Below, one piece after another: positions 3,702 to 27,036 of a DNA stretch of 28,266 nt. The position numbers and the translations under genes were made by a program. This stretch comes from a virus. Location: IMG/VR virus record IMGVR_UViG_3300045135_002368, positions 1-28,266 of that record; one strand, 5' to 3'. The stretch's first letter is position 1. Every line of letters begins with the position of its first letter. The notes under the pieces were generated by a model, which was not told the DNA's origin, searched no databases, and saw nothing but the letters and a program-made list of their open reading frames with translations.

Positions 3702-6551
3702 ATGGCAAGAGTAGCGATAAATACCGGCTCAGCTGCAAATGATGGAACAGGTGATAGTCTTCGTGGTGCCGGTGGTAAAATAAATTCAAACTTTGTTGAT
3801 TTATACAATTTTCTGGGTGATGGTACGAATCTAACCCCTGGTTGGGATATAGTAAGTACTGGTATCGTTACTACTGCAAATGTGGGTATTGGAACTACAA
3901 TTCCTAGATTTGATTTAGAAGTTGGGGCAATTGGATCTTCTAGCACTTCTTTATATGTTCATGGAGAAGCTAATGCTACTAGTTTTTCTGGTTCTGCCTC
4001 TGGATTAACAAGTATTCCTTCAAGTCAATTGACTGGAGCACTTCCAGCTCTTGATGGTTCTGCATTGACCAACGTTGTTGGTAGTGGATCTGGTGTTGTT
4101 ATTCAAGAAGAGGGATCGGCTGTAGGAACTGCAGGAACTATTGACTTTGTGGGTTCTGCAGTAACTGCAACATTTAGTGGTGGTATTGCTACTGTTAGTA
4201 TTAGTGGTGGGGGAATTCAGGGTGTTGTTGTTCAAGAAGAGGGGTCAACTGTAGGAACTGCAGGAACTATTGACTTTGTGGGTACTGGAGTAACTGCGAC
4301 GTTTAGTGGTGGTATTGCTACAGTTAGTATTAGTGGTGGTGGAGGTGGAGGTGCCTCTTCTATTAATGACTTATCTGATGCTCATGCCGATAACAGTAGT
4401 AATCTTTCTTTAGGTACACAAGCTCTCCAACAGTTTGGTACTGGCAGCTTTACAGGACTGAGCAATGTCGCAGTTGGTAATGCTGCTTTGTATTCCAATA
4501 CATCTGGAGGTTCCAATTCATCTTTTGGTGCTGAATCTTTACGTTATAATACCAGTGGTAGTTCTAATGCCGCATTCGGATACTATGCTTTATATAGCTG
4601 TACTGAAGGTAATAACAATGTTGCTGTAGGTGTTAATGCTTTAAAGGATGCGACAACTGCAACTAACAATGTAGCAATTGGAAAAAATGCACTGAGGGCG
4701 CATGTTACAGGAAGCCGTAATGTTGCTATAGGTTATCAAAGTTTATATTATACTACAGGTTATAGTAACACTGGTGTTGGTTATGAATCACTGAACCAAA
4801 ACAGAACTGGCGACTCCAACACTGCGATTGGTAATGGTGCATTGAGGCAAAATTATGATGGAGTTCAAAATACTGCATTGGGAAATGCTGCTGGTTATGG
4901 AAATACTAGTGGTAATTATAATGTTGCCATAGGTTATAATGCTTTATTAGATAATGAAACTGGTAACCGTAACATTGCAATTGGAAATAATGCGTTAGAA
5001 AATCTGGAAAATAGAAGTGAATGTATTGCTATTGGAGCCTACGCTGGAGCAGCATCAACAAGTTCGCAATGGTTTGTTGCAATTGGAGATGGATCTCTCC
5101 AATATCAAACTACTGCCAACTACAACACGGCTTTAGGACATCAGTCTCTGGGAAAAGCAACAACAGGTGGTTCAAATGTTGCGGTTGGTGCTAATGCAGT
5201 ATATAAACTCACTACAGGAAATTATAATACTGGAGTTGGTTATAATGCATTATATGAATGTACTGGAAGTTCAACTGGTAACGTAGCACTTGGTTACAAG
5301 GCTGGAGCCGAGGTAGCAGATGCTGATTATAACACTTTTGCTGGTTATGGAGCTGGAGAAAAAGTCACATCTGGCAACGGTAACGTTGCTGTAGGTCATA
5401 ATGCTTTAGGTGTAAGTACTTCAGGAAATAATAATGTTGCTGTTGGAGAGTATGCGCTTGATGCTTCTACTATTGGATATCAAAACACTGCTCTTGGTTA
5501 TAATGCAGGAACTAACATTACAGAGGGATATTATAATGTCGCGGTTGGAGCAGATGCAGCAAAACTTTCCACGACCGGTACTAGTAATGTATCTATAGGA
5601 TACCAAGCAGCACAAACCCTAACCACTGGAAGTAATAACATAACCATTGGATATAACGCACAACCTAGTAGTGCAACTGCTTCTCATGAAATTACTATTG
5701 GTGATAGTTTTGCCAAGACCTTGCGTATTCCTGGATTAAATGGGAATGACGGTGAAGTTCTTAGTTATGATTCATCTACTTCTACTATCGGCTTTAGTGA
5801 TTATACTGGAGACCTTTCGGGTGCTGTAACAAGTAGATGGGACCTTGGTGCTAATGGTACTAATCATTACACATTTACTGGACCTGGTTTTTCTGGAGCT
5901 ACAGATGATCCAACAGTATTTTTACAAAGAGGGCATACATATGAATTTGTAAATGGACTTAATGCTCATCCTTTCCAAATTCAACTTGAGTATCAAAATA
6001 CAACAGGTACAGCGTATGGTGATGGCGTAACTAATAATGGAGCACAAAATGGCACTATAAAATTCAAAGTGCCAATGGATGCACCCAATAAACTTCATTA
6101 TCAATGTACATCCCATGTGGGAATGTCTGGAACCATCTTCATTGGACCAGCACAAAATGTTCCTGTTGGACAAAGACAAGTTGTTTCTGCATCAACTGGT
6201 AACGTAGCTTCAAACAATAGTGCAAACATCTCAATTCCTGGATTTAAAACATATAGTTTGTTAAAAGTTGATATAGATCATCCTGCATGGGTAAGATTAT
6301 ATGTTGACTCTTCTTCAAGAACATCAGATTCTAGTAGACTTTATACAACAGATCCAACACCAGGTTCTGGTGTGATAGCAGAAGTTCGCACTACAACTTC
6401 AGGTAGTAGTACATTCTTAATGTCTCCAGGAGTTATTGGATGGAATAATGATTCCACTACAAGTGAAACAATATATGCAAGAGTTACAAATAATGACTCT
6501 ATAACGAGAGACATTACAGTCAGTTTAACCGTAGTTAAAATGGAGGGTTGA
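3702..6551 (+). CDS. Tail fibre/adhesin with YadA-head-like repeats and a cupredoxin-like domain
   Basis: This 949-residue protein has the layout of a receptor-binding fibre. Residues 1-40 carry a phage-fibre N-terminus (NTGSAANDGTGDSLR, then KINSNFVDLY), probably the virion-attachment end. An NVGIGTTIP motif follows near residue 60. Residues 132-214 hold two copies of a 43-residue repeat that end in a poly-Gly linker. Residues 253-668 contain about 24 repeats of the type NVAIGxxAL...TG, as in the head of trimeric autotransporter adhesins. Residues about 700-815 look like a cupredoxin, with H756, C802, H805 and M808 in type-1 copper order. The last ~125 residues (from 'IPGFKTYSLLKVD') form a beta domain often seen at the ends of marine phage fibres. 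No intramolecular chaperone is visible. The gene is followed after 3 nt by the protease gene, so the two are probably co-translated. Confidence 0.85.
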   Translation: MARVAINTGSAANDGTGDSLRGAGGKINSNFVDLYNFLGDGTNLTPGWDIVSTGIVTTANVGIGTTIPRFDLEVGAIGSSSTSLYVHGEANATSFSGSASGLTSIPSSQLTGALPALDGSALTNVVGSGSGVVIQEEGSAVGTAGTIDFVGSAVTATFSGGIATVSISGGGIQGVVVQEEGSTVGTAGTIDFVGTGVTATFSGGIATVSISGGGGGGASSINDLSDAHADNSSNLSLGTQALQQFGTGSFTGLSNVAVGNAALYSNTSGGSNSSFGAESLRYNTSGSSNAAFGYYALYSCTEGNNNVAVGVNALKDATTATNNVAIGKNALRAHVTGSRNVAIGYQSLYYTTGYSNTGVGYESLNQNRTGDSNTAIGNGALRQNYDGVQNTALGNAAGYGNTSGNYNVAIGYNALLDNETGNRNIAIGNNALENLENRSECIAIGAYAGAASTSSQWFVAIGDGSLQYQTTANYNTALGHQSLGKATTGGSNVAVGANAVYKLTTGNYNTGVGYNALYECTGSSTGNVALGYKAGAEVADADYNTFAGYGAGEKVTSGNGNVAVGHNALGVSTSGNNNVAVGEYALDASTIGYQNTALGYNAGTNITEGYYNVAVGADAAKLSTTGTSNVSIGYQAAQTLTTGSNNITIGYNAQPSSATASHEITIGDSFAKTLRIPGLNGNDGEVLSYDSSTSTIGFSDYTGDLSGAVTSRWDLGANGTNHYTFTGPGFSGATDDPTVFLQRGHTYEFVNGLNAHPFQIQLEYQNTTGTAYGDGVTNNGAQNGTIKFKVPMDAPNKLHYQCTSHVGMSGTIFIGPAQNVPVGQRQVVSASTGNVASNNSANISIPGFKTYSLLKVDIDHPAWVRLYVDSSSRTSDSSRLYTTDPTPGSGVIAEVRTTTSGSSTFLMSPGVIGWNNDSTTSETIYARVTNNDSITRDITVSLTVVKMEG
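4095..4342 (+). repeat. Two tandem 43-codon direct repeats in the fibre gene
   Basis: Two in-frame copies with a period of 129 nt begin at 4095 and 4224. Both encode the pattern QEEGSxVGTAGTIDFVG...VTATFSGGIATVSISGGG. The copies differ at only a modest number of bases, which points to a fairly recent duplication. A poly-Gly stretch follows the second copy. Confidence 0.85.
4458..5705 (+). repeat. About 24 YadA-head-like repeats encoding the fibre shaft
   Basis: In-frame degenerate repeats of mostly 14-18 codons encode N-[VTI]-A-[VIL]-G-x-x-[AS]-[LG] followed by a short turn that often holds TG (NVAVGNAAL, NSSFGAESL, NVAIGKNAL, NTGVGYESL and so on, to NITIGYNAQ and EITIGD). They correspond to residues 253-668 of the fibre. 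In adhesins this repeat forms a left-handed trimeric beta-roll. The DNA copies are too diverged to be a CRISPR or satellite array. Confidence 0.85.
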
Positions 6552-6554
6552 TAA

Positions 6555-8243
6555 ATGTCAGATCTTAACGAGTATATTATAACTTGTAAATCATATGATG
6601 ATCTAGAAGACTTATATGAGGATATGGAGACTCCTGGTGGGTCCCTTTACATTCCAAATAGAGCAGTTGAACTTGTTCACAGAAGAAAAATTAGTCGTAA
6701 CACTCATTACATGCTGAATGAGGGAGAAGCAGCAGAAATAAGAAAAGATAGAAGAGTTATTGCATGTGAACGTCCAGCAAAAGATAGAGGATTGGTCCCT
6801 ACGCCTTTGTGGACACAAACAGGTGATTTCAATAAGACCACTGGAACATTTTCAGGTGATGATAAAAATTGGGGATTATATAGAGTTGTTGAGGGGGATA
6901 GTGTTGCCAACTGGGGCAGTGATAGCACTTCAGAAATTACAAATAAAACTATTGTAACTACAGCATCAGGAAAAAATGTTGATGTTATTATTGTTGATAG
7001 TCATATAAATCCAGACCATCCAGAATTTGCTGTTAATTCTGATGGAACTGGTGGCAGTAGAGTAAACCAGTATAATTGGTTTCAACACTCTATTGAGTTA
7101 GGATATGTGACCACTCCTGATGATTATTCTTATAGCACGTCTGGTGCTTCTCCAAATAACAATCACGGAACGCACGTAGCAGGAACTGTTGCTGGTAACA
7201 CACAGGGATGGGCAAGAGATGCTAACATTTATAATATAGCTTTCACTGATGGTCTATCTGGTGAGACCAATTGGGATGAAATGCTATTAGATTATATTCG
7301 CGAATTTCACTATTACAAAACAGCTAACGCTGCAACTGGTAGAACAAATCCAACAATCACTAACCATAGTTGGGGATATAGTTACGCTAATATTCAGTTG
7401 TCTGATATTACATCAGTTACTTACAGAGGAACAACAACTGCTGTAAGTGGAACGGATGCACAAAAGAAAGTAACGTTAGAAGATAATGGTGTTCCAGTTC
7501 CTCTCAATACGTATCTCTATAGAGTTCCCGCTAGAGTTGCTTCATTTGATGCTGATATTCAGGATGCCATTGACGAAGGTATAATTTTTGTCTCTTCTGC
7601 TGGAAATAGTTTTTGGAACTGTGATACTGCTACACCATATGGAGATGACTATAATAATAGTATAGTCGCTAGTGGCGACACCATATATCACTCTAGAGGT
7701 GCAACACCAGGATCAGCAGATAACGTTATTTGTGTTGGTTCTATTGGTTCTAAAGTTAATGAATATAAATCTGATTTCAGTAACTGGGGTGAACGTGTAG
7801 ATATCTGGGCACCAGGTAGTGATATTATTTCTGCTGTTTATGATAGTTCTAGTGCTACTACAGAAAACAGTGGTTCATATACTCCGATTGTCGCTGATTC
7901 TAGAAACTCTTCATATTATCTTGCTTCAATTAGTGGAACAAGCATGTCTTCACCACAAGTATGTGGTGTGATTGCTTGTCTTGCAGAAACTGAACCAAAT
8001 TTGACTCAAGCACAAGCACTTCAATATCTAAAAGAAAATTCTCTATCTGAACTTGGCACAACAGGAAATATCAATCACAGTACATATGAAGCGCGTGGTG
8101 ATAGTCACAATAGATATCTTTTCCTTTATCAAAAAAGACAAAAAACAGGATCTATTCAACCAACTGTTTTTGGAAATAGAAATCCAGACAGTTCTGGCGT
8201 AAAGTATCCAAGAACTAATAGAATGGTGACAAAGCGTCAATAA
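6555..8243 (+). CDS. Subtilisin-family (S8) serine protease in the tail gene cluster
   Basis: This 562-residue protein carries the full subtilase catalytic set. D148 lies in 'VDVIIVDSHI', H204 in 'NNHGTHVAGTVAG' and S463 in 'SGTSMSSPQVCG'. The substrate-binding segment 'NHSWG' is at 270-274 and the oxyanion Asn is N351 in 'SSAGNSF'. The first ~90 residues precede the catalytic fold and could be a propeptide or a virion-binding segment. There is no signal peptide. The start is supported by a strong ribosome site (GGAGG at 6542-6546, 8 nt upstream) and lies 3 nt after the fibre stop. The fold and chemistry are well supported. The target is unknown: cleaving a host surface protein during adsorption, or maturing the adjacent fibre, are both possible. 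Two Cys (C355, C472) flank the C-terminal catalytic half. Confidence 0.92.
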   Translation: MSDLNEYIITCKSYDDLEDLYEDMETPGGSLYIPNRAVELVHRRKISRNTHYMLNEGEAAEIRKDRRVIACERPAKDRGLVPTPLWTQTGDFNKTTGTFSGDDKNWGLYRVVEGDSVANWGSDSTSEITNKTIVTTASGKNVDVIIVDSHINPDHPEFAVNSDGTGGSRVNQYNWFQHSIELGYVTTPDDYSYSTSGASPNNNHGTHVAGTVAGNTQGWARDANIYNIAFTDGLSGETNWDEMLLDYIREFHYYKTANAATGRTNPTITNHSWGYSYANIQLSDITSVTYRGTTTAVSGTDAQKKVTLEDNGVPVPLNTYLYRVPARVASFDADIQDAIDEGIIFVSSAGNSFWNCDTATPYGDDYNNSIVASGDTIYHSRGATPGSADNVICVGSIGSKVNEYKSDFSNWGERVDIWAPGSDIISAVYDSSSATTENSGSYTPIVADSRNSSYYLASISGTSMSSPQVCGVIACLAETEPNLTQAQALQYLKENSLSELGTTGNINHSTYEARGDSHNRYLFLYQKRQKTGSIQPTVFGNRNPDSSGVKYPRTNRMVTKRQ

Positions 8244-20164: not shown

Positions 20165-21166
20165 ATGTTTGAATACTTTTACCACGAAATATTAAGAAAG
20201 ACAGTAATTTCTTTCGGAACACTATTCAATGGAATGGTGATTAAACATACTGATAGTAGTGATAATACTGTTAGTGAGGTAAAAGTGCCTTTGGCATATG
20301 GACCAATGCAAAAGTTCTTGGCAAGACTTGAGCAATCTGCAGATTTGAACAAACCTGTTCAAATGAGTCTTCCAAGAATGTCATTTGAATTTACTGGTTT
20401 AAATTATGATTCTTCCAGAAAAGTGACAACAACCCAACAATTTGTTACTATTGGCGATCAGAAAAAAGCATATATGCCAGTTCCATATAACATGGCATTT
20501 GAACTTAATATTATGACAAAGTTGAATGATGATATGCTTCAAATTGTAGAGCAAATATTACCATATTTTCAACCATCTTACAATCTCAGTGTTACTCTTG
20601 TTGGGGATATTTCTGAGAAGAGAGACATTCCTGTTGTGCTTGATAGCGTAACAATGAATGATGACTATGAGGGAGATTTTTCAACAAGAAGAGCACTTAT
20701 TTATACATTACGTTTCACTGCAAAGACATATTTGTTCGGTCCAATTGCAGATGCATCCAAGGATATCATCAAAAAGGTATCTATTGGTTATCTCGCTGGA
20801 GAAACAGGAGAGGGTACAAGAGTTGTTGGAAGAGACGTTACTTACTCTGTTGAACCAAGAGCAACTAAAAATTATGACAGTAATGTTGCTACAACTATTC
20901 AGGATGACATTAGTGAAAAAGTAACAAATATTTTAGTTGCAGATGCATCTACGATTGACGCGAATAGTTACATTATCATTGATAATGAATCAATGTATGT
21001 TAGTAAGAGAAACACTACAACAAATATTCTTACTGTTAAGAGAGGTCAGGATGGAACTACTGCCGTTTCTCACGTTGCTGGAACCAATGTAGGAACTATT
21101 ACTGCTGCAGATAATGCATTGATAACTCCTGGAGATGACTTTGGATTTGATGGTGGATTCTCATGA
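20165..21166 (+). CDS. 15: Tail completion/sheath stabiliser gp15 with a C-terminal extra module
   Basis: In T4, gp15 is the terminator at the top of the contractile tail and joins it to the neck. Residues 1-210 match this family: MFEYFYHEILRKTVISFGTL, FNGMVIKH, YGPMQKFLARLEQ, QMSLPRMSFEFTGL, MPVPYNMAFELNIMTK, VEQILPYFQPSYNLSV and TLRFTAKTYLFGPI. The protein has 333 residues; T4 gp15 has 272. Most of the extra length is a C-terminal module (about 251-311: IIIDNESMYVSK, NILTVKRGQDGTTAVSHVAG), which also occurs in the giant DUF4815 protein and in the left-edge structural protein. The stop overlaps the gp16 start as ATGA. Confidence 0.92.
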   Translation: MFEYFYHEILRKTVISFGTLFNGMVIKHTDSSDNTVSEVKVPLAYGPMQKFLARLEQSADLNKPVQMSLPRMSFEFTGLNYDSSRKVTTTQQFVTIGDQKKAYMPVPYNMAFELNIMTKLNDDMLQIVEQILPYFQPSYNLSVTLVGDISEKRDIPVVLDSVTMNDDYEGDFSTRRALIYTLRFTAKTYLFGPIADASKDIIKKVSIGYLAGETGEGTRVVGRDVTYSVEPRATKNYDSNVATTIQDDISEKVTNILVADASTIDANSYIIIDNESMYVSKRNTTTNILTVKRGQDGTTAVSHVAGTNVGTITAADNALITPGDDFGFDGGFS

Positions 21167-21603
21167 AAATGACTAAAAAGTTTGATGACTTAAACGAAAC
21201 ATTTAATGTGTCAGATGATTTCATTCAACCTGAGGTTGAAGTATCTCCGATTCAAAAGGTAGATAAAGAAAAACTATCACCAGATGATATAAAGAAAGAC
21301 TATGAGTATACAAGAGGAAACTTATATTCTCTTATAGAAAAAGGTCAAGAAGCTATCAATGGCATTTTAGAACTTGCCCAAGAAAGTGAGATGCCAAGAG
21401 CATATGAAGTAGCTGGTCAGTTAATTAAAAATGTTGCTGATGCAACTGACAAGTTGATGGAACTTCAGAAAAAGTTAAAAGATGTTGAGGAAGAAAAGCA
21501 AGTAAAAGGACCATCAACAGTTAATAATGCTTTGTTTGTTGGTTCAACTGCAGACCTAGCAAAACTCTTAAAGAAAGGGTTGCCTGAAGATGAAAACATT
21601 TAG
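21163..21603 (+). CDS. 16: Terminase small subunit gp16
   Basis: gp16 helps the large terminase recognise and start packaging of concatemeric DNA. This 146-residue, mostly helical and charged protein (T4: 164) carries the family pattern KDYEYTRGNLYSLIEKGQEAI, AYEVAGQLIKNVADATDKL and MELQKKLKDVEEEKQ. The C-terminal tail has FVGSTADLAKLLKKG. The start ATG overlaps the gp15 stop by 4 nt, with an alternative ATG two codons in. Unlike in T4, gp17 does not follow directly: about 3.8 kb of small genes intervene. The last 14 nt overlap the first of these. Confidence 0.9.
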   Translation: MKMTKKFDDLNETFNVSDDFIQPEVEVSPIQKVDKEKLSPDDIKKDYEYTRGNLYSLIEKGQEAINGILELAQESEMPRAYEVAGQLIKNVADATDKLMELQKKLKDVEEEKQVKGPSTVNNALFVGSTADLAKLLKKGLPEDENI

Positions 21604-21745
21604 ACAGTTTCAAGAGGGTTGGAGTAATAAATATAAACGCACTATTGATTGCTCAAATCCAAAAGGATTTTCACAAAAAGCACACTGTGCTGCCAGAAAG
21701 AAAAGGGCAAAAGGTGAGGAAACAAAATCTAAACCAGTGAAATGA
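21590..21745 (+). CDS. 51-aa basic peptide with capsid-targeting-like N-terminus and Cys motif
   Basis: The frame reads MKTFRQFQEGWSNKYKR, then TIDCSNPKGFSQKAHC, then AARKKRAKGEETKSKPVK. The first nine residues resemble the T4 capsid-targeting sequence MKTYQEFIAE, and FQE before G fits the prohead protease rule [LIF]xE before a small residue. Cleavage would leave a 42-residue, strongly basic peptide with two Cys, suited to binding DNA. The 'NPKGFSQKAHC' core is one I have seen in small proteins and protein tails of marine phages, without a known function. The gene overlaps gp16 by 14 nt and the next gene by ATGA, which supports it as real despite its size. An AAAGGG-like ribosome site lies upstream. 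Confidence 0.72.
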   Translation: MKTFRQFQEGWSNKYKRTIDCSNPKGFSQKAHCAARKKRAKGEETKSKPVK

Positions 21746-22329
21746 ATCCAAACAAAAATTTATTTAAGTGGTCAGTTTTAGGTGTTAGTGGCGTTATTGC
21801 TATTGCACATATCGGTGTTCTTGGACATCTTATCAAGAGAGAACCACTAGTCCAACAACCACCAACATTCAATATTCCTCGTGGACCATATTCTTCCTAT
21901 CGTATTAAAGCAGGTAAGGATGGATATGAGATTGAGTATCGTGCAAATGATCCCAAAGTCTTAGAATCAGAAAGATCTCTTGATTTGGATAAAGAAAAGA
22001 GAGGACTCTTTGGTGGTGGAACTGAGAAACGCACAGAGTATCGTCGTGACCAGTACACCATGGAAGGCACCCGTAATATGGGGTCAGGAGGTGCCGTAGC
22101 AAACGGTGAGGGAAAGAGTGCAGAAGAAGTAGAGTGTTTGATCGCGGACGCTGGAGCACGGTCACAAGGTGCAATGGCAGGGACCGCAATTAGCACAGGT
22201 ATTCTTGTCCCTGCAGTAATGAATATTCCTTACATTGGATGGTTGGCAGCAGGATGGGCATCTTTATTAGGACAGAATATTGGATCTGAAGTAGGTTCAG
22301 AAGTTGGTTCAGTGTTCAACGATTGCTAA
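21742..22329 (+). CDS. Membrane protein with glycine-zipper end, unknown function
   Basis: This 195-residue protein has two hydrophobic segments: residues about 10-31 (WSVLGVSGVIAIAHIGVLGH), and about 145-178 (AMAGTAISTGILVPAVM, then GWLAAGWASLLGQ). The second runs into G181-x3-G185-x3-G189, a glycine-zipper pattern used for helix packing in membranes. The linker (32-144) is charged and Gly-rich, with GLFGGGTEKRTEYRRDQY. The start overlaps the previous stop as ATGA. Membrane proteins are unusual between terminase genes. It might act in host membrane changes late in infection or, if packaged, at DNA entry. I do not recognise the family with a known function. Confidence 0.72.
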   Translation: MNPNKNLFKWSVLGVSGVIAIAHIGVLGHLIKREPLVQQPPTFNIPRGPYSSYRIKAGKDGYEIEYRANDPKVLESERSLDLDKEKRGLFGGGTEKRTEYRRDQYTMEGTRNMGSGGAVANGEGKSAEEVECLIADAGARSQGAMAGTAISTGILVPAVMNIPYIGWLAAGWASLLGQNIGSEVGSEVGSVFNDC

Positions 22330-22331
22330 AT

Positions 22332-22350
22332 AATAGGAGAACTATTTTTT
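22332..22350 (+). promoter_or_regulatory. Small hairpin presenting the ribosome site of the next gene
   Basis: AATAG (22332-22336) can pair with CTATT (22342-22346), placing most of the AGGAGA ribosome site in the loop. A T-run follows. The linear spacing from AGGAG to the ATG at 22355 is about 15 nt, longer than usual; folding would shorten it. It could instead be read as a weak terminator, but five AU-rich base pairs are little for that. Confidence 0.3.
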
Positions 22351-22354
22351 ATTC

Positions 22355-23815
22355 ATGAAAAACGGCAAATGTCCTGCTGGTGAATATTATTGCTACACTG
22401 ATAAAAAATGTAAACCCATACCCAAAGGATTCATGGTCGATCCAGAAGGAATGCTCCGTAAGGAGAATGGACACACTGTAGATGAAGCCAACAAGAGTGG
22501 TGATAGTTCTTTGCGTGATTGGTTTGGCAAAAGTAAATCTAGTGATGGAAAACCTGGTTGGGTTCAACTGGGTGGAAAATATGCTGGAAAACCTTGTGCA
22601 AAACAACCAGGACAAACCACCAAACCCAAGTGTGGTTCTAGCAAAATGAAACGCAATCTCTCCAAGGATGAAGAAGAGAGAGCATTTCGTCGTAAAAATC
22701 GCCAAGATCCAAATCCAAATAGAAAGGGGAAAGCAATTAACGTGGCAACCGAGGAAACTAAAAAAGACCATGAGTTTTCCATGGCACGTTCTGAATTATC
22801 AACTATCAAAAACGCTGCAAAGAGGTTGAACAAAAAAATGGGCAAGAAAGGAGAAGGAGAACTGAAAGCCTGGGTTCAGTCTAAAATTACAAAGGCAGCA
22901 GATTATATTGATACTGCAGCAGACTATGTTACTAATGAAGCAGCGGGAGAGAAAGACGCTTGCTATCATAAGGTAAAATCACGTTATTCAGTTTGGCCAA
23001 GTGCATATGCGTCAGGAGCACTAGTCAAATGCCGTAAAGTCGGCGCTAAAAATTGGGGAAACAAATCCAAGAAGAACGAAGAATTCACTCCATCACAAAT
23101 TGCAGCACTTGAGTCTATTGGTGCTATTGATGTGAATGAAGAAGGACAAAAGTGTTGGAAGGGGTATGAAAAGAAGGGAACCAAAAAAATGTTTGGTAAA
23201 ACCTATAATAACTGTGTGAAGAAAGAAGATGTTGAACTAACAGATTCTTATGGAGAAACCTTCGCAGTTATTCAAGATATTATTAAACCAGAACCACTCA
23301 AACCCAGTTCAAATGGTATTGAGTTTGAAACTTATGATATTGAAAAAATGACTGAAGCAGTCCGTATGCCAACTAAAACTGGACAGATTGTTAAGGTACA
23401 TCTCTCTTGGAGAGGAAAATATTATGCTATAAAAATGTTCTTCCCCTCAATAAAAACACCAAGTCGTTCTGATGTTCAACTTCAGATAGACAAAGTATAT
23501 CCTGGCGCAAGAATACAGTCTTACCAGGTATCGGAGTATGAACCCGGAGAACCAGTCTTCCACACAGAGGGAGCAGCATGGACAAAAAAAGAAGGAAAGA
23601 ATAAAGAAGGAGGACTTAACGAAAAAGGAAGGAAGTCTTACGAAAGAGAGAATCCAGGATCTGACCTTAAAGCACCAAGCAAGAAGGTTGGAAACCCCCG
23701 TCGCGCATCATTTTGTGCTCGAATGAAGGGTATGAAAAAGAAGCTAACTAGTAAAAAAACTGCTAACGATCCCGATAGCAGAATCAACAAATCACTTAGA
23801 GCGTGGAACTGCTGA
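22355..23815 (+). CDS. Basic, multi-module mosaic protein, unknown function (486 aa)
   Basis: This looks like a string of short modules, most rich in Cys, Lys and Arg. In order: CPAGEYYCYTDKKCKPIPKG (6-25); GWVQLGGKYAGKPCAKQPG with a basic DPNPNRKGKA tail (68-127); a helical WVQSKITKAADYIDTAADY (173-191); ACYHKVKSRYSVWPSAYASG, then ALVKCRKVGAKNWG (202-235); GQKCWKGYEKKGTKKMFGKT, then YNNCVKKE (264-291); a W-x-GK...PSR...YPGA domain (about 340-400); and a C-terminal EGGLNEKGRKSYERENPGSD and RRASFCARMKGM...RAWNC block (406-486). I have seen these motifs, in varied combinations, in marine phages and some giant algal viruses. No enzyme active site is recognised. It may be a DNA-associated or head-interior protein. 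It has no MKTFKQF start, but the four genes downstream do, and one shares its W-x-GK domain. The next gene starts within the stop (TGATG). Confidence 0.8.
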   Translation: MKNGKCPAGEYYCYTDKKCKPIPKGFMVDPEGMLRKENGHTVDEANKSGDSSLRDWFGKSKSSDGKPGWVQLGGKYAGKPCAKQPGQTTKPKCGSSKMKRNLSKDEEERAFRRKNRQDPNPNRKGKAINVATEETKKDHEFSMARSELSTIKNAAKRLNKKMGKKGEGELKAWVQSKITKAADYIDTAADYVTNEAAGEKDACYHKVKSRYSVWPSAYASGALVKCRKVGAKNWGNKSKKNEEFTPSQIAALESIGAIDVNEEGQKCWKGYEKKGTKKMFGKTYNNCVKKEDVELTDSYGETFAVIQDIIKPEPLKPSSNGIEFETYDIEKMTEAVRMPTKTGQIVKVHLSWRGKYYAIKMFFPSIKTPSRSDVQLQIDKVYPGARIQSYQVSEYEPGEPVFHTEGAAWTKKEGKNKEGGLNEKGRKSYERENPGSDLKAPSKKVGNPRRASFCARMKGMKKKLTSKKTANDPDSRINKSLRAWNC

Positions 23816-23988
23816 TGAAAACTTTTAAACAATTTAAAGAACAAATTACACCATCTAAAGGAGGTGTTGCTGTCCATGGGTCTGATGGAAAAATTACCAA
23901 AATGGTTCCTCCAGTCGATTTAAGGACACTTGATCGAAAAATGCAAAATGTAAAAAATCAAGCCATAGCAAAGTTTGGAAGACCATGA
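23815..23988 (+). CDS. 57-aa protein with capsid-targeting-like N-terminus
   Basis: The protein starts MKTFKQFKEQITPSKGGVAV and ends with VPPVDLRTLDRKMQNVKNQA. The ATG at 23815 overlaps the upstream stop by 1 nt; an ATG four codons earlier would extend the overlap and lose the shared MKTFKQF start. The N-terminus matches the capsid-targeting-like peptide of its neighbours, although FKE before Q fits the cleavage rule less well than in others. The PVDLRTLDRKM segment is repeated as PIDLRTVDQKM in the gene at 24194, so the two are probably paralogues. Function unknown; a packaged internal head protein is the leading guess. Confidence 0.7.
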   Translation: MKTFKQFKEQITPSKGGVAVHGSDGKITKMVPPVDLRTLDRKMQNVKNQAIAKFGRP

Positions 23989-24194
23989 AAACTTTTAAAC
24001 AATTTCAAGAAGGTCTTTTTGATTTCTTACCTAAACAAAAAACTAAAATTAAACCAGGTGGAGTTGGTATTGTACAAGATAAAGATAAGAAATACGGAAT
24101 GCCAATGCCTAAACAACCCATTGATGGAAATAGAATGCGTATGCCGCCAGCAAAATTTACAGCACCAAATCCATACAAAACAACTTTAGTGTGA
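23985..24194 (+). CDS. 69-aa basic protein with capsid-targeting-like N-terminus
   Basis: It starts MKTFKQFQEGLFDFLPKQKT. The first 21 bases are identical to those of the gene just upstream. FQE before G is a good match to the T4 prohead protease site, and the mature 60-residue product would be basic and rich in Pro and Met (KYGMPMPKQPIDGNRMRMPP). The gene overlaps its upstream neighbour by ATGA and its downstream neighbour by 1 nt, and a GGAAG ribosome site precedes it. Function unknown; inferred internal head protein. Confidence 0.72.
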   Translation: MKTFKQFQEGLFDFLPKQKTKIKPGGVGIVQDKDKKYGMPMPKQPIDGNRMRMPPAKFTAPNPYKTTLV

Positions 24195-24352
24195 TGAAGT
24201 CATTCAAAGAATTTGTGGAACAGATGGTTGCTCCCAACAATCCCATCAAAGGCGCTGATCCTATTGATTTACGAACTGTAGATCAAAAAATGAACCTTTT
24301 AAAGAAAAAAGGAGAATTTTATAAAAAGTACAATCTATACAAAAAACCATGA
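24194..24352 (+). CDS. 52-aa basic protein with capsid-targeting-like N-terminus
   Basis: The frame reads MKSFKEFVEQMVAPNNPIKG, then ADPIDLRTVDQKM, then a Lys/Tyr-rich end (KKKGEFYKKYNLYKKP). It overlaps the previous stop by 1 nt (TGATG) and the next start as ATGA, which supports its reality. The N-terminus is a variant of the MKTFKQF peptide, closer to T4 in having E at position 6 (KEF; T4 QEF). The middle is paralogous to the gene at 23815. Function unknown. Confidence 0.7.
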   Translation: MKSFKEFVEQMVAPNNPIKGADPIDLRTVDQKMNLLKKKGEFYKKYNLYKKP

Positions 24353-24663
24353 AAACTTATAAACAGTTTTTGTCCGAGAACGTTACAATTCAAGGAGATT
24401 TTAACGGCACTTTAAATATTGGCGCAGAAGCACCTCAACCCCAAAAGGTTGGTGAATCATATTATGCCGATATTGTTTGGGAAGGGAAAATTTACAGAAT
24501 GGAAATTGAAGGAAAAATGCCATCAAAACAATCTCTTGGTGAACAACTTCAAGGAGAATATCCTGGTGCCGTAGTTCACCAAATTTATCCTTCTACTGAG
24601 AGGTCATTAAATATTAAGAGTGCTCAAAGATATCAACCAGAAAGATTAAGTTGGAGTGACTGA
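24349..24663 (+). CDS. 104-aa protein: capsid-targeting-like peptide plus W-x-GK/YPGA domain
   Basis: The start MKTYKQFLSE is the closest of the set to the T4 capsid-targeting sequence MKTYQEFIAE: same length, seven of ten residues shared when aligned straight, and LSE matching the protease consensus. The rest holds a domain with VWEGKIYRMEIEG, MPSKQSLGEQLQGEYPGAVV. This aligns with LSWRGKYYAIKMFF...PSRSDVQLQIDKVYPGARI in the 486-residue protein upstream. The start overlaps the previous gene as ATGA, and the next gene starts within its stop. A packaged head protein carrying this domain is inferred. Confidence 0.78.
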   Translation: MKTYKQFLSENVTIQGDFNGTLNIGAEAPQPQKVGESYYADIVWEGKIYRMEIEGKMPSKQSLGEQLQGEYPGAVVHQIYPSTERSLNIKSAQRYQPERLSWSD

Positions 24664-25376
24664 TGGCAAAAGATTTTTTATGGGGTGAAGAGTTTAAACT
24701 TGATGTTGCCCGTGGTAAAGCAAGAGGTGCTTCTGTAAGAAACATCTTTGGATATAACACTGCTGGTACAACTGCTCTAAGAGCAGTTTGGGATAAAGCT
24801 GCTGATTATGCATATCCAGCATCTGCAGTCACGATGACTGTAACTAATGATGATGCGGCTGATGATGGAGGAACAGTTCTTATCAAAGGTCTTGATGCGA
24901 ACTATGCAGAAGTTTCCGAGACTGTAACTACTAATAATGCAACTCCACCAACTACTACCCAAACATTTTTGAGAATCAATGATGTAATTTATACAAACAC
25001 TGGTGCAAATGCAGGCATCATTGATGTGAGTAATGGTGGTGTAGATTACGCAAGAATTCGTGCTGGTGACGGTAGAAATCAGGCATCAATTTACACAGTT
25101 CCTGCAGGATGTGAGTTTTACTTATATCGTATTGATGCGTTCTCTTCAGATGGTACTGCTGCAAAACCATTCATCTTTAGAAACTACACCCGTACTTCTG
25201 CGGGAGCAGAATATAATACTGCTAGAACAACTGCTCTTGGTAACATGAGTATTCAGAGAAGACTTCCCTTTAAATACTCAGAGAAGACTGATATCCAACT
25301 CCAAATGTCAACTAGTTCAGGAACTCATGAACTTGCTGTATTTAGTGAAGGTATCCTAATTAAAGAATCTATGTGA
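24663..25376 (+). CDS. Probable virion structural protein, beta-rich, unknown role
   Basis: This 237-residue protein lacks the MKTFKQF start (it begins MAKDFLWGEEFKLDVARGK). It has strand-rich sequence such as VTMTVTNDDAADDGGTVLIK, GLDANYAEVSETVTTN and YTVPAGCEFYLYRIDAFSS, ending in LAVFSEGILIKESM. The pattern looks like a jelly-roll or Ig-like capsid surface or fibre protein, and similar ones occur in marine phages, but I cannot name it. It starts within the stop of the previous gene (TGATG) and lies 7 nt before gp17. Its position among head and packaging genes favours a head-associated or decoration role. Confidence 0.7.
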   Translation: MAKDFLWGEEFKLDVARGKARGASVRNIFGYNTAGTTALRAVWDKAADYAYPASAVTMTVTNDDAADDGGTVLIKGLDANYAEVSETVTTNNATPPTTTQTFLRINDVIYTNTGANAGIIDVSNGGVDYARIRAGDGRNQASIYTVPAGCEFYLYRIDAFSSDGTAAKPFIFRNYTRTSAGAEYNTARTTALGNMSIQRRLPFKYSEKTDIQLQMSTSSGTHELAVFSEGILIKESM

Positions 25377-25383
25377 GTAAATT

Positions 25384-27036
25384 ATGAGTGATAATGTATA
25401 CCTTGGCAATCCTAATTTAAAAAAAGCGAACACCCCTATTGAGTTTACAGAGGATCAAGTTCGAGAATTTATTAAATGTAAAGAAGACCCAGTTTACTTT
25501 GCAAACAACTATATTAAAATTGTTTCTCTTGATGAGGGTCTGACTCAGTTTCACCCATACCATTTTCAAGAGAAGTTAATCAATAACTTCCACAATAACA
25601 GATTTAATATCTGTAAGATGCCTCGTCAGACTGGTAAATCTACTACAGTCGTATCTTACCTTTTGCATTATGCTGTATTTAACGACAGTGTGAACATTGG
25701 TATTCTGGCAAACAAAGCAGCAACTGCAAGGGAACTTCTTGGAAGGTTACAAACTGCATACGAGAACTTACCTAAATGGATGCAACAGGGTATTATATCC
25801 TGGAACAAAGGCAGTTTGGAGTTAGAGAATGGCAGTAAGATATTGGCAGCTTCTACGTCTGCGAGTGCTGTCCGAGGTATGTCATTTAACATCCTCTTTC
25901 TCGACGAATTCGCGTTCGTCCCAAATCACGTTGCTGACTCGTTCTTTGCATCTGTTTATCCTACTATTACTTCTGGTAAAAACACCAAAGTAATTATTGT
26001 ATCTACCCCACATGGTATGAATCACTTCTACCGCATGTGGCACGATGCGGAGAAAGGAAAGAATGAGTATGTTCCGACAGATGTTCATTGGTCAGAAGTT
26101 CCTGGAAGGGATTTGAAGTGGAAAGAAACAACTATTGCAAATACATCAGAACAGCAATTTAAAGTTGAGTTTGAATGTGAGTTCTTAGGATCAGTTGATA
26201 CCCTGATTGCTCCAAGTAAACTAAGAACACTAATATACGATAACCCAATTCAAAAAAATGCTGGTTTAGATGTCTATGAGGCATCAAAAGAAAACCATGA
26301 CTATGTGATGACAGTTGACGTTGCAAGAGGAGTTGGAGAAGACTACTCTGCATTTGTTGTTGTAGATATTACACAGTTCCCCCATAGAGTTGTTGCAAAA
26401 TATCGGAACAATGATATCAAACCGATGTTGTTCCCCAATATCATATATGAGGTAGCAAAGAATTATAATAGTGCATTCATCTTATGTGAGGTAAATGATA
26501 TTGGAGATCAGGTTGCAAGTATTCTTCAGTATGATCTGGAATATCAGAACTTATTGATGTGTTCTATGAGAGGCAGAGCAGGACAGATTGTTGGACAAGG
26601 ATTCTCTGGCAAGAAGACTCAACTTGGCGTCAAGATGTCTAAGACTGTTAAGAAGGTTGGTTCACTCAACTTAAAAACTTTAATTGAAGAAGATAAACTG
26701 ATTTTCAATGACTATGAGATTATCTCTGAACTGACAACCTTTATCTCAAAGCATAACTCATTTGAGGCAGAAGAAGGTTGTAATGATGACTTAGCAATGT
26801 GTCTTGTCATCTATGCTTGGTTGGTTCAGATGGACTACTTTAAAGAGTTAACTGACCAGGATGTTCGTAAGAGATTATATGAAGAGCAAAAAAATCAGAT
26901 TGAACAAGACATGGCACCATTTGGTTTTATGGATGATGGATTGGATGATGCAAGTTTTACTGATGATCAAGGTGATAGATGGTTTAAGGCAGATGAGTAT
27001 GGCGACAAGTCTTATATGTGGGAGTATTTTTCATAA
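25384..27036 (+). CDS. 17: Terminase large subunit gp17 (packaging ATPase and nuclease)
   Basis: gp17 pumps DNA into the prohead and cuts the concatemer. The ATPase half shows Walker A MPRQTGKST (79-87; K85), Walker B ILFLDEFAF (170-178; D174, E175) and the coupling motif VSTPHG (206-211). The nuclease half shows the RNase H-like acidic set: D312 in MTVDVARG, E369 in FILCEVNDIGDQ, and D468/D469 in GCNDDLAMCLVIYAW. At 550 residues it is shorter than T4 gp17 (610), but all catalytic residues are present. The start is 7 nt after the previous gene. The stop overlaps the start of the zinc-ribbon gene (TAATG). Confidence 0.97.
   Translation: MSDNVYLGNPNLKKANTPIEFTEDQVREFIKCKEDPVYFANNYIKIVSLDEGLTQFHPYHFQEKLINNFHNNRFNICKMPRQTGKSTTVVSYLLHYAVFNDSVNIGILANKAATARELLGRLQTAYENLPKWMQQGIISWNKGSLELENGSKILAASTSASAVRGMSFNILFLDEFAFVPNHVADSFFASVYPTITSGKNTKVIIVSTPHGMNHFYRMWHDAEKGKNEYVPTDVHWSEVPGRDLKWKETTIANTSEQQFKVEFECEFLGSVDTLIAPSKLRTLIYDNPIQKNAGLDVYEASKENHDYVMTVDVARGVGEDYSAFVVVDITQFPHRVVAKYRNNDIKPMLFPNIIYEVAKNYNSAFILCEVNDIGDQVASILQYDLEYQNLLMCSMRGRAGQIVGQGFSGKKTQLGVKMSKTVKKVGSLNLKTLIEEDKLIFNDYEIISELTTFISKHNSFEAEEGCNDDLAMCLVIYAWLVQMDYFKELTDQDVRKRLYEEQKNQIEQDMAPFGFMDDGLDDASFTDDQGDRWFKADEYGDKSYMWEYFS

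Follow-up and report, generated by a model that had tools for sequence, protein, structure and literature searches.

A probable internal-head-protein cassette with T4-type targeting peptides between the terminase genes of a cyanophage

Why should five small genes lying between the terminase genes of a phage encode proteins that begin with the same short peptide and then, for the most part, differ? The question arises from IMG/VR virus record IMGVR_UViG_3300045135_002368 (28,266 nucleotides, analyzed whole and called the window below), a 28-kb fragment of a Kyanoviridae cyanophage whose own terminase large subunit, gp17, shares 95.8% identity with its counterpart in Synechococcus phage S-SM2. 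A sequence-only reading of this DNA had singled out the five genes for their common N-terminal peptide, and the coordinates and N-termini are exactly as it described. With a probability of roughly three in four, we take the genes to be a hypervariable cassette of internal head proteins, in which a T4-type capsid-targeting sequence (CTS) precedes mostly unrelated cargo bodies that are swapped in a slot before gp17. Sequence itself shows the motif together with its conservation and modularity, the hypervariable slot, and a fusion at the gp23 junction; the presence of other motif-bearing proteins in the virions of relatives comes from published proteomics. The open reading frames (ORFs) of the region are as follows.

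21163..21603, + strand: gp16, the small terminase subunit, bordering the hypervariable gap on the left (phrog_445, E=4e-55; above the cut-off for Pfam DNA_Packaging).
21590..21745, + strand: p51, 51 residues, CTS MKTFRQFQE (nine residues) and a 42-residue basic cargo domain (GWSNKYKRTIDCSNPKGFSQKAHCAARKKR...); ORF with 35 CTS-tagged homologues.
21742..22329, + strand: p195, 195 residues, conserved, without a CTS (phrog_605, E=2e-87).
22355..23815, + strand: p486, 486 residues, multi-domain and Lys/Cys-rich, with a C-terminal DUF6321 and no CTS (Pfam DUF6321, E=9e-23; phrog_727).
23815..23988, + strand: p57, 57 residues, CTS MKTFKQFKE and a basic body; ORF with two homologues, both CTS-tagged.
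23985..24194, + strand: p69, 69 residues, CTS MKTFKQFQE and a basic Pro/Lys-rich body; ORF with two homologues, both CTS-tagged.
24194..24352, + strand: p52, 52 residues, CTS MKSFKEFVE and a basic body, a paralogue of p57; ORF with five homologues, all CTS-tagged.
24349..24663, + strand: p104, 104 residues, CTS MKTYKQFLSE ending in a consensus site for gp21 (LSE|N) and, after it, an acidic domain found inside p486 as well (phrog_1742, E=7e-41).
24663..25376, + strand: p237, 237 residues, without a CTS (phrog_8198; the S-SCSM1 homologue, SSCSM1_31, is annotated as a virion protein).
25384..27036, + strand: gp17, the large terminase subunit, bordering the gap on the right (Terminase_6N/6C).

Searched at the DNA level over the record, the pattern MK[ST][FY]xxF gave five forward matches, none on the reverse strand, and none for a reversed-pattern control. 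Across 11 whole phage genomes, 11 of about 5,400 ORFs carried the motif (approximately 0.2%, counted on first-ATG ORFs of at least 45 residues). Against this background, five motif genes among nine consecutive genes are far beyond chance. Extending the search to related phages, as the sequence-only reading had suggested, and to T4 returned matches there too. With the terminal Glu included, the motif outscored all 200 permuted motifs in the whole P-SSM2 and S-CREM2 genomes; in the T4 genome it retrieved gene 61.1 along with ipII and ipIII, to which the shorter form added ipI. Around 80 T4-like gp17 genes (918 kb), we counted 37 strict and 40 relaxed matches; the 853 kb surrounding 80 T7-like capsid genes gave no strict match and a single relaxed one. 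Phages of the T7-like kind are not known to have a gp21-type protease, and in this sample they essentially lack the motif. The genomes of HTVC008M and S-PM2 gave no match to the full motif with Glu, which shows that not every T4-like marine phage carries the tag.

The peptide is conserved as residues rather than as codons and behaves like a protein signal. It is present in 100 of 101 p104 homologues, whose alignment shows M1, K2, F7, and E10 to be invariant and S3 and F4 to be at least 90% conserved. Among 75 distinct homologues, Ser3 occurs in 73 and Phe4 in 74, K2, F7, and E10 do not vary, and position 8 is Leu, Ile, or Met. The Ser3 codons (AGT, TCA, TCT, and TCC) come from both Ser families, and those for Phe, Leu, and Glu vary as well. 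Chance and codon bias were considered as sources of the motif and are ruled out by the pattern controls and this synonymous variation. All five window proteins have an aromatic residue 4 and F7, the features by which the same motif recovers T4 ipI, ipII, and ipIII. Mutants of T4 IPIII showed targeting to depend on residues 4 and 7, and processing on residues 8 and 10 (PMC9026906).

The most telling sequence result is a fusion at the junction with the capsid protein gp23. S-SM2 gene 108 (L006:21377-21805), situated in the gp16–gp17 gap, begins MKTLKQFLKE|TPTNSVGNGGYTSAGGQTVAGYD, and S-SM2 gp23 reads IAE|QPTNAVGNGGYTSSGGQTVAGFD at the predicted gp21 cleavage. A gene in the gp16–gp17 gap of a second locus (L030, 259-693) begins MKSFKQFLSE|QPTNSVGSDGY. 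With the CTS followed directly by a copy of the gp23 arm, the CTS-final Glu thus takes the place of the Glu after which gp21 is predicted to cleave gp23. The C-terminal part of the gene 108 product contains an internal KTFEEFRE and then the p51 domain. This domain starts at GWS in three settings: after a CTS, straight after Met, and inside large DUF6321 proteins (xxE|GWS), the last seen in many relatives with the same start residue. Since the p51 domain occurs with or without a CTS from the same start, and given the architecture of gene 108, the CTS is a separable module.

As an observation in its own right, several non-capsid proteins carry a mimic of the N-terminal arm of gp23, the stretch that immediately follows the gp21 site. 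Its carriers are S-SM2 gene 108, the L030 gene, T4 gene 61.1 (L241:467-631), S-CREM2 gp160, and SSCSM1_97, with further positions in S-SM1 (152805-153353) and Syn9 (about 154414). The mimic directly follows the CTS in S-SM2_108, L030, and T4 61.1, and the arm-mimic score of 61.1 was reached by 0 of 2000 shuffles. The mimic-bearing S-CREM2 gp160 and SSCSM1_97 are detected virion proteins. Phage records with 61.1-like matches number 1402, and a part of these may be gp23 itself. The arm mimic is possibly an anchor to the inner capsid.

Published virion proteomes place other carriers of the motif in phage particles. For S-CREM2, 52 proteins of 219 genes were detected (PMC10665884, Table 3). Five of its ORF starts bear the motif: gp6 (SAM hydrolase), gp13, gp14 (APH/ChoK-like kinase), gp136, encoded within the terminase gap, and gp154 (cytidylyltransferase). 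Each of the five appears among the detected virion proteins (hypergeometric 6e-4 versus 52/219), although this count is partly post hoc, the pattern having been widened after the gp136 sequence was seen. The annotation of S-SCSM1 lists its NMNAT (MKSFLQFLKE) as a virion protein (PMC9602691), and the S-SM1 counterpart of this enzyme, T4-GC190 (N-terminus MKKFSAFLNE), was detected in virions (PMC3037559). Homologues of p486 are likewise virion proteins, namely SSCSM1_29 (annotated) and S-CREM2 gp137 (PMC10665884, Table 3). S-CREM1, considered as a third proteome test, offers 14 detected proteins only, and positions 1-50000 of its record carry no virion notes. A term search of the S-CREM2 paper found no mention of targeting or N-terminal signals (PMC10665884), and among the papers in the library searched, the phrase "capsid targeting sequence" was paired with "cyanophage" in one T4 review only. 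Residue conservation, the gp23-junction fusion, the S-CREM2, S-SCSM1, and S-SM1 virion proteomics, and the T4 and T7-like controls together make the T4-type CTS the best, and a well supported, reading of the common peptide, in agreement with the sequence-only reading.

Enzymes with a CTS (NMNAT/cytidylyltransferase, SAM hydrolase, and kinase) were also noticed at S-SCSM1 88819, S-SM2 130761, P-SSM2 158143, Syn9 149735, and S-SM1 148256. In the Cas9-like nuclease gp12 of S-CREM2, residues 17-25 form a comparable motif (LRFASFMAE|A).

The slot itself is highly variable. At 84 loci where a DUF6321 gene precedes gp17, 0 to 5 genes lie in between, and 50 of the 55 small ORFs in this interval have a CTS, their bodies falling into seven BLAST clusters. 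Of the five without one, at least one (in L032) looks like a shifted gp17 fragment. The window has the fullest slot, with four CTS genes in addition to p51 upstream. Locus L173 has three, of which only p69 is clearly in common with the window; L172 and L169 have one each, and L007, L010, L015, and L016 have none. The CTS genes of the window do not form one block, as p195 and p486 stand between p51 and the other four. The start of p51 overlaps the end of gp16 by 14 nucleotides, and p57, p69, p52, p104, and p237 overlap serially by 1 or 4 nucleotides (TGATG/ATGA), like translationally coupled operons. Divergence past the peptide, as first described, is mostly true, except that p57 and p52 are paralogous beyond the CTS (DLRT[LV]D[RQ]KM) and one domain of the neighboring p486 recurs in the body of p104.

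Two further observations concern the genes without a CTS. p195 (phrog_605) lies in the terminase gap here and far from it in S-SM2, S-SCSM1, Syn9, S-SM1, and P-SSM2, so the gene has moved. Proteins of the p486 family consist of small Lys/Cys-rich domains in series, several beginning directly after a Glu (TE|GAAW, TE|AVRM, EE|GQKC); a polyprotein of cargo units cut in the head is possible.

We infer packaging, cleavage, and ejection of the five proteins, and the action of their cargo, along the following lines. The CTS (K2, an aromatic residue 4, F7, and a terminal Glu) would bind a protein made in the late phase to the prohead scaffold core. The bodies would be the cargo taken into the head, and ejection together with the DNA is possible. 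p104 would be trimmed after residue 10 at LSE|N. For p51, p57, p69, and p52, either a protease of broader specificity would cut after Glu9 or the tag would be kept. The cargo genes would be exchanged in the slot before gp17.

Several observations weigh against this account, beginning with the processing site. Removal after [LI]xE, as the sequence-only reading proposed, holds for p104 (LSE, residues 8-10) and fails for p51, p57, p69, and p52, which have FxE at residues 7-9 and no [LI]xE in the whole protein. Cleavage sites in gp23 are [LI]xE in 32 of 32 sequences, with P3 always Leu or Ile and FxE in none. The window ends before gp21, and the protease of this phage was therefore not seen; gp21 is annotated in S-SM2, S-SCSM1, P-SSM2, and S-CREM2. 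Beyond the post hoc element noted above, the original narrower S-CREM2 pattern gives three of three in virions and a p of approximately 0.013 (hand calculation, 52/219). The S-SCSM1 orthologue of p104, SSCSM1_30, is annotated as hypothetical, and the flanking SSCSM1_29 and SSCSM1_31, homologues of p486 and p237, are virion proteins. For the five proteins and their close orthologues, presence in the virion is a prediction from sequence. p104 is also acidic, unlike the T4 internal proteins.

The conflict at the cleavage site gives rise to the alternative that has fared best, namely that p104, with its ten-residue CTS and LSE, is the only true internal protein and the four nine-residue forms are decayed or different and non-functional. 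The absence of FxE from the gp23 sites and the rarity of the p57, p69, and p52 families fit this idea, but we consider it unlikely. E9 is invariant in the p51 family, and K2, F4, F7, and E9 recur across several unrelated bodies with nine-residue tags. In T4, the residues that determine targeting are 4 and 7, and those of the cleavage site are not among them (PMC9026906). T4 IPI, which starts MKTFKEF, also lacks an adjacent LxE and has ITE at residues 17-19, and S-CREM2 gp136 (MQTFSMFFSE) has Phe at P3 yet appears in the virion list.

Slightly less probable still is that the five proteins reach the prohead core as dispensable scaffold parts and are degraded or expelled rather than injected, like the T4 gp67/gp68 fragments. 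T4 core proteins are cut to fragments that mostly leave the head (PMC9026906), and the missing virion annotation of the S-SCSM1 p104 orthologue is in line with this idea. T4 scaffold proteins, however, have several [LI]xE sites, and the five bodies have a single one between them (LGE, p104 residues 63-65); proteins with the same motif stay in S-CREM2 and S-SCSM1 virions, and gp67/68 adjoin gp21 and lack the motif. Core proteins of the gp67/gp68 type proper (between gp20 and gp21, several [LI]xE, no CTS) were rejected as candidates, as location, CTS, and at most one internal site disagree. That the common N-terminus is a by-product of recombination or translation initiation in a gene-shuffling hot spot, without protein function, is very improbable: the first 27 nucleotides of p57 and p69 differ at 1 position, the gap is a known variable region (PMC3037559), and the gene overlaps resemble translational coupling, but residues are conserved where codons are not, the motif is common to T4 internal proteins and to enzymes from distant loci found in virions, and the gp23 junction sequence falls exactly after the N-terminal Glu in two relatives.

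The internal-head-protein reading has close parallels in the T-even phages. IPI, IPII, and IPIII (Tequatrovirus) resemble the window five in their N-terminal MKT[FY]xxF and their small, mostly basic, non-conserved bodies, and the T-even ip loci are, like the window, hypervariable, multi-gene, and found by signal (Repoila 1994, as cited in PMC12373910; PMC9026906). At least 10 ip genes have been recognized by signal in T4-related phages, and T4 injects Ip1-Ip3, dedicated anti-restriction factors that inhibit different GmrSD restriction enzymes (PMC12373910). Unlike the T-even ip genes, the window genes lie in the terminase gap of a cyanophage, four of their five tags have the nine-residue FxE form, and no body similarity was noticed. 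Packaging and anti-restriction function have been shown for the T4 proteins, whereas the window five are putative internal proteins. The cassette is best filed with the T-even ip cassettes, as one that probably operates in their manner but occupies a new locus and has a shorter form of the tag.

The gp16–gp17 gap was already known as a variable region of cyanophages in which small hypothetical genes are gained and lost (Millard 2009, cited in PMC3037559), and the papers found here treat it as a hot spot of hypothetical genes and not as a slot for CTS-tagged cargo. The sequence-only reading knew of no description of such a multi-gene cassette between the terminase genes; this novelty narrows, since the variable gap and the T-even CTS sets are both known, although those sets lie at other loci. 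The S-CREM2 and S-SCSM1 virion enzymes (SAM hydrolase, APH/ChoK-like kinase, and NMNAT; PMC10665884, PMC9602691) have the same motif as the window five but are large and encoded elsewhere in the genome, and the available text of those papers does not ascribe their packaging to a CTS. For the internal, propeptide-bearing head proteins of phiKZ and SPN3US, a gp21-related protease trims after a short Glu-final motif (PMC9026906); these differ from the window five in phage group and motif.

A broader proposal, on which we are evenly divided, is that a general, interchangeable tag loads cyanophage heads with small variable proteins and with enzymes (NMNAT, SAM hydrolase, and kinase), partly joined to the gp23-arm mimic, and that the second, nine-residue FxE form implies a different processing rule. 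If true, a ten-residue tag would predict head-carried cyanophage proteins from sequence, metabolic enzymes included, and would explain the recurrent NMNAT and similar enzymes in cyanophage virions. Tagged proteins could then enter the host with the DNA ahead of any phage gene expression, and the tag would point to a variable group of effectors that likely act early against picocyanobacteria.

The cargo offers some leads to function. The bodies of p51, p57, p69, and p52 have isoelectric points of 9.9-10.6 and could, judging from this basic character, bind DNA; that of p104 is 5.1. Profile libraries gave no match for p51 and p69, marginal matches only for p57 and p52, and a PHROG of unknown function for p104. 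The structural model of p104 has a mean predicted local distance difference test score (pLDDT) of 69, with a core (residues 41-80) of about 84-90. Its best matches in the PDB are weak, T7 Gp2 (E=0.26, TMt 0.58) and YkzG (E=0.35), with none below 1e-3. T7 Gp2 is an inhibitor of RNA polymerase (RNAP), and YkzG is an RNAP-interacting protein (RNAP epsilon). From the model, a host RNAP binder resembling Gp2 or RNAP epsilon is possible for p104, as a lead and not a result.

Elsewhere in the window, positions 6555-8243 encode a subtilisin-like serine protease (HGTHVAG, GTSMSSPQ) amid tail and baseplate genes. Positions 3702-6551, adjoining baseplate genes, encode a protein of 949 residues that has YadA-like repeats (NVAVGYNAL...) and, at its C terminus, a cupredoxin-like stretch.

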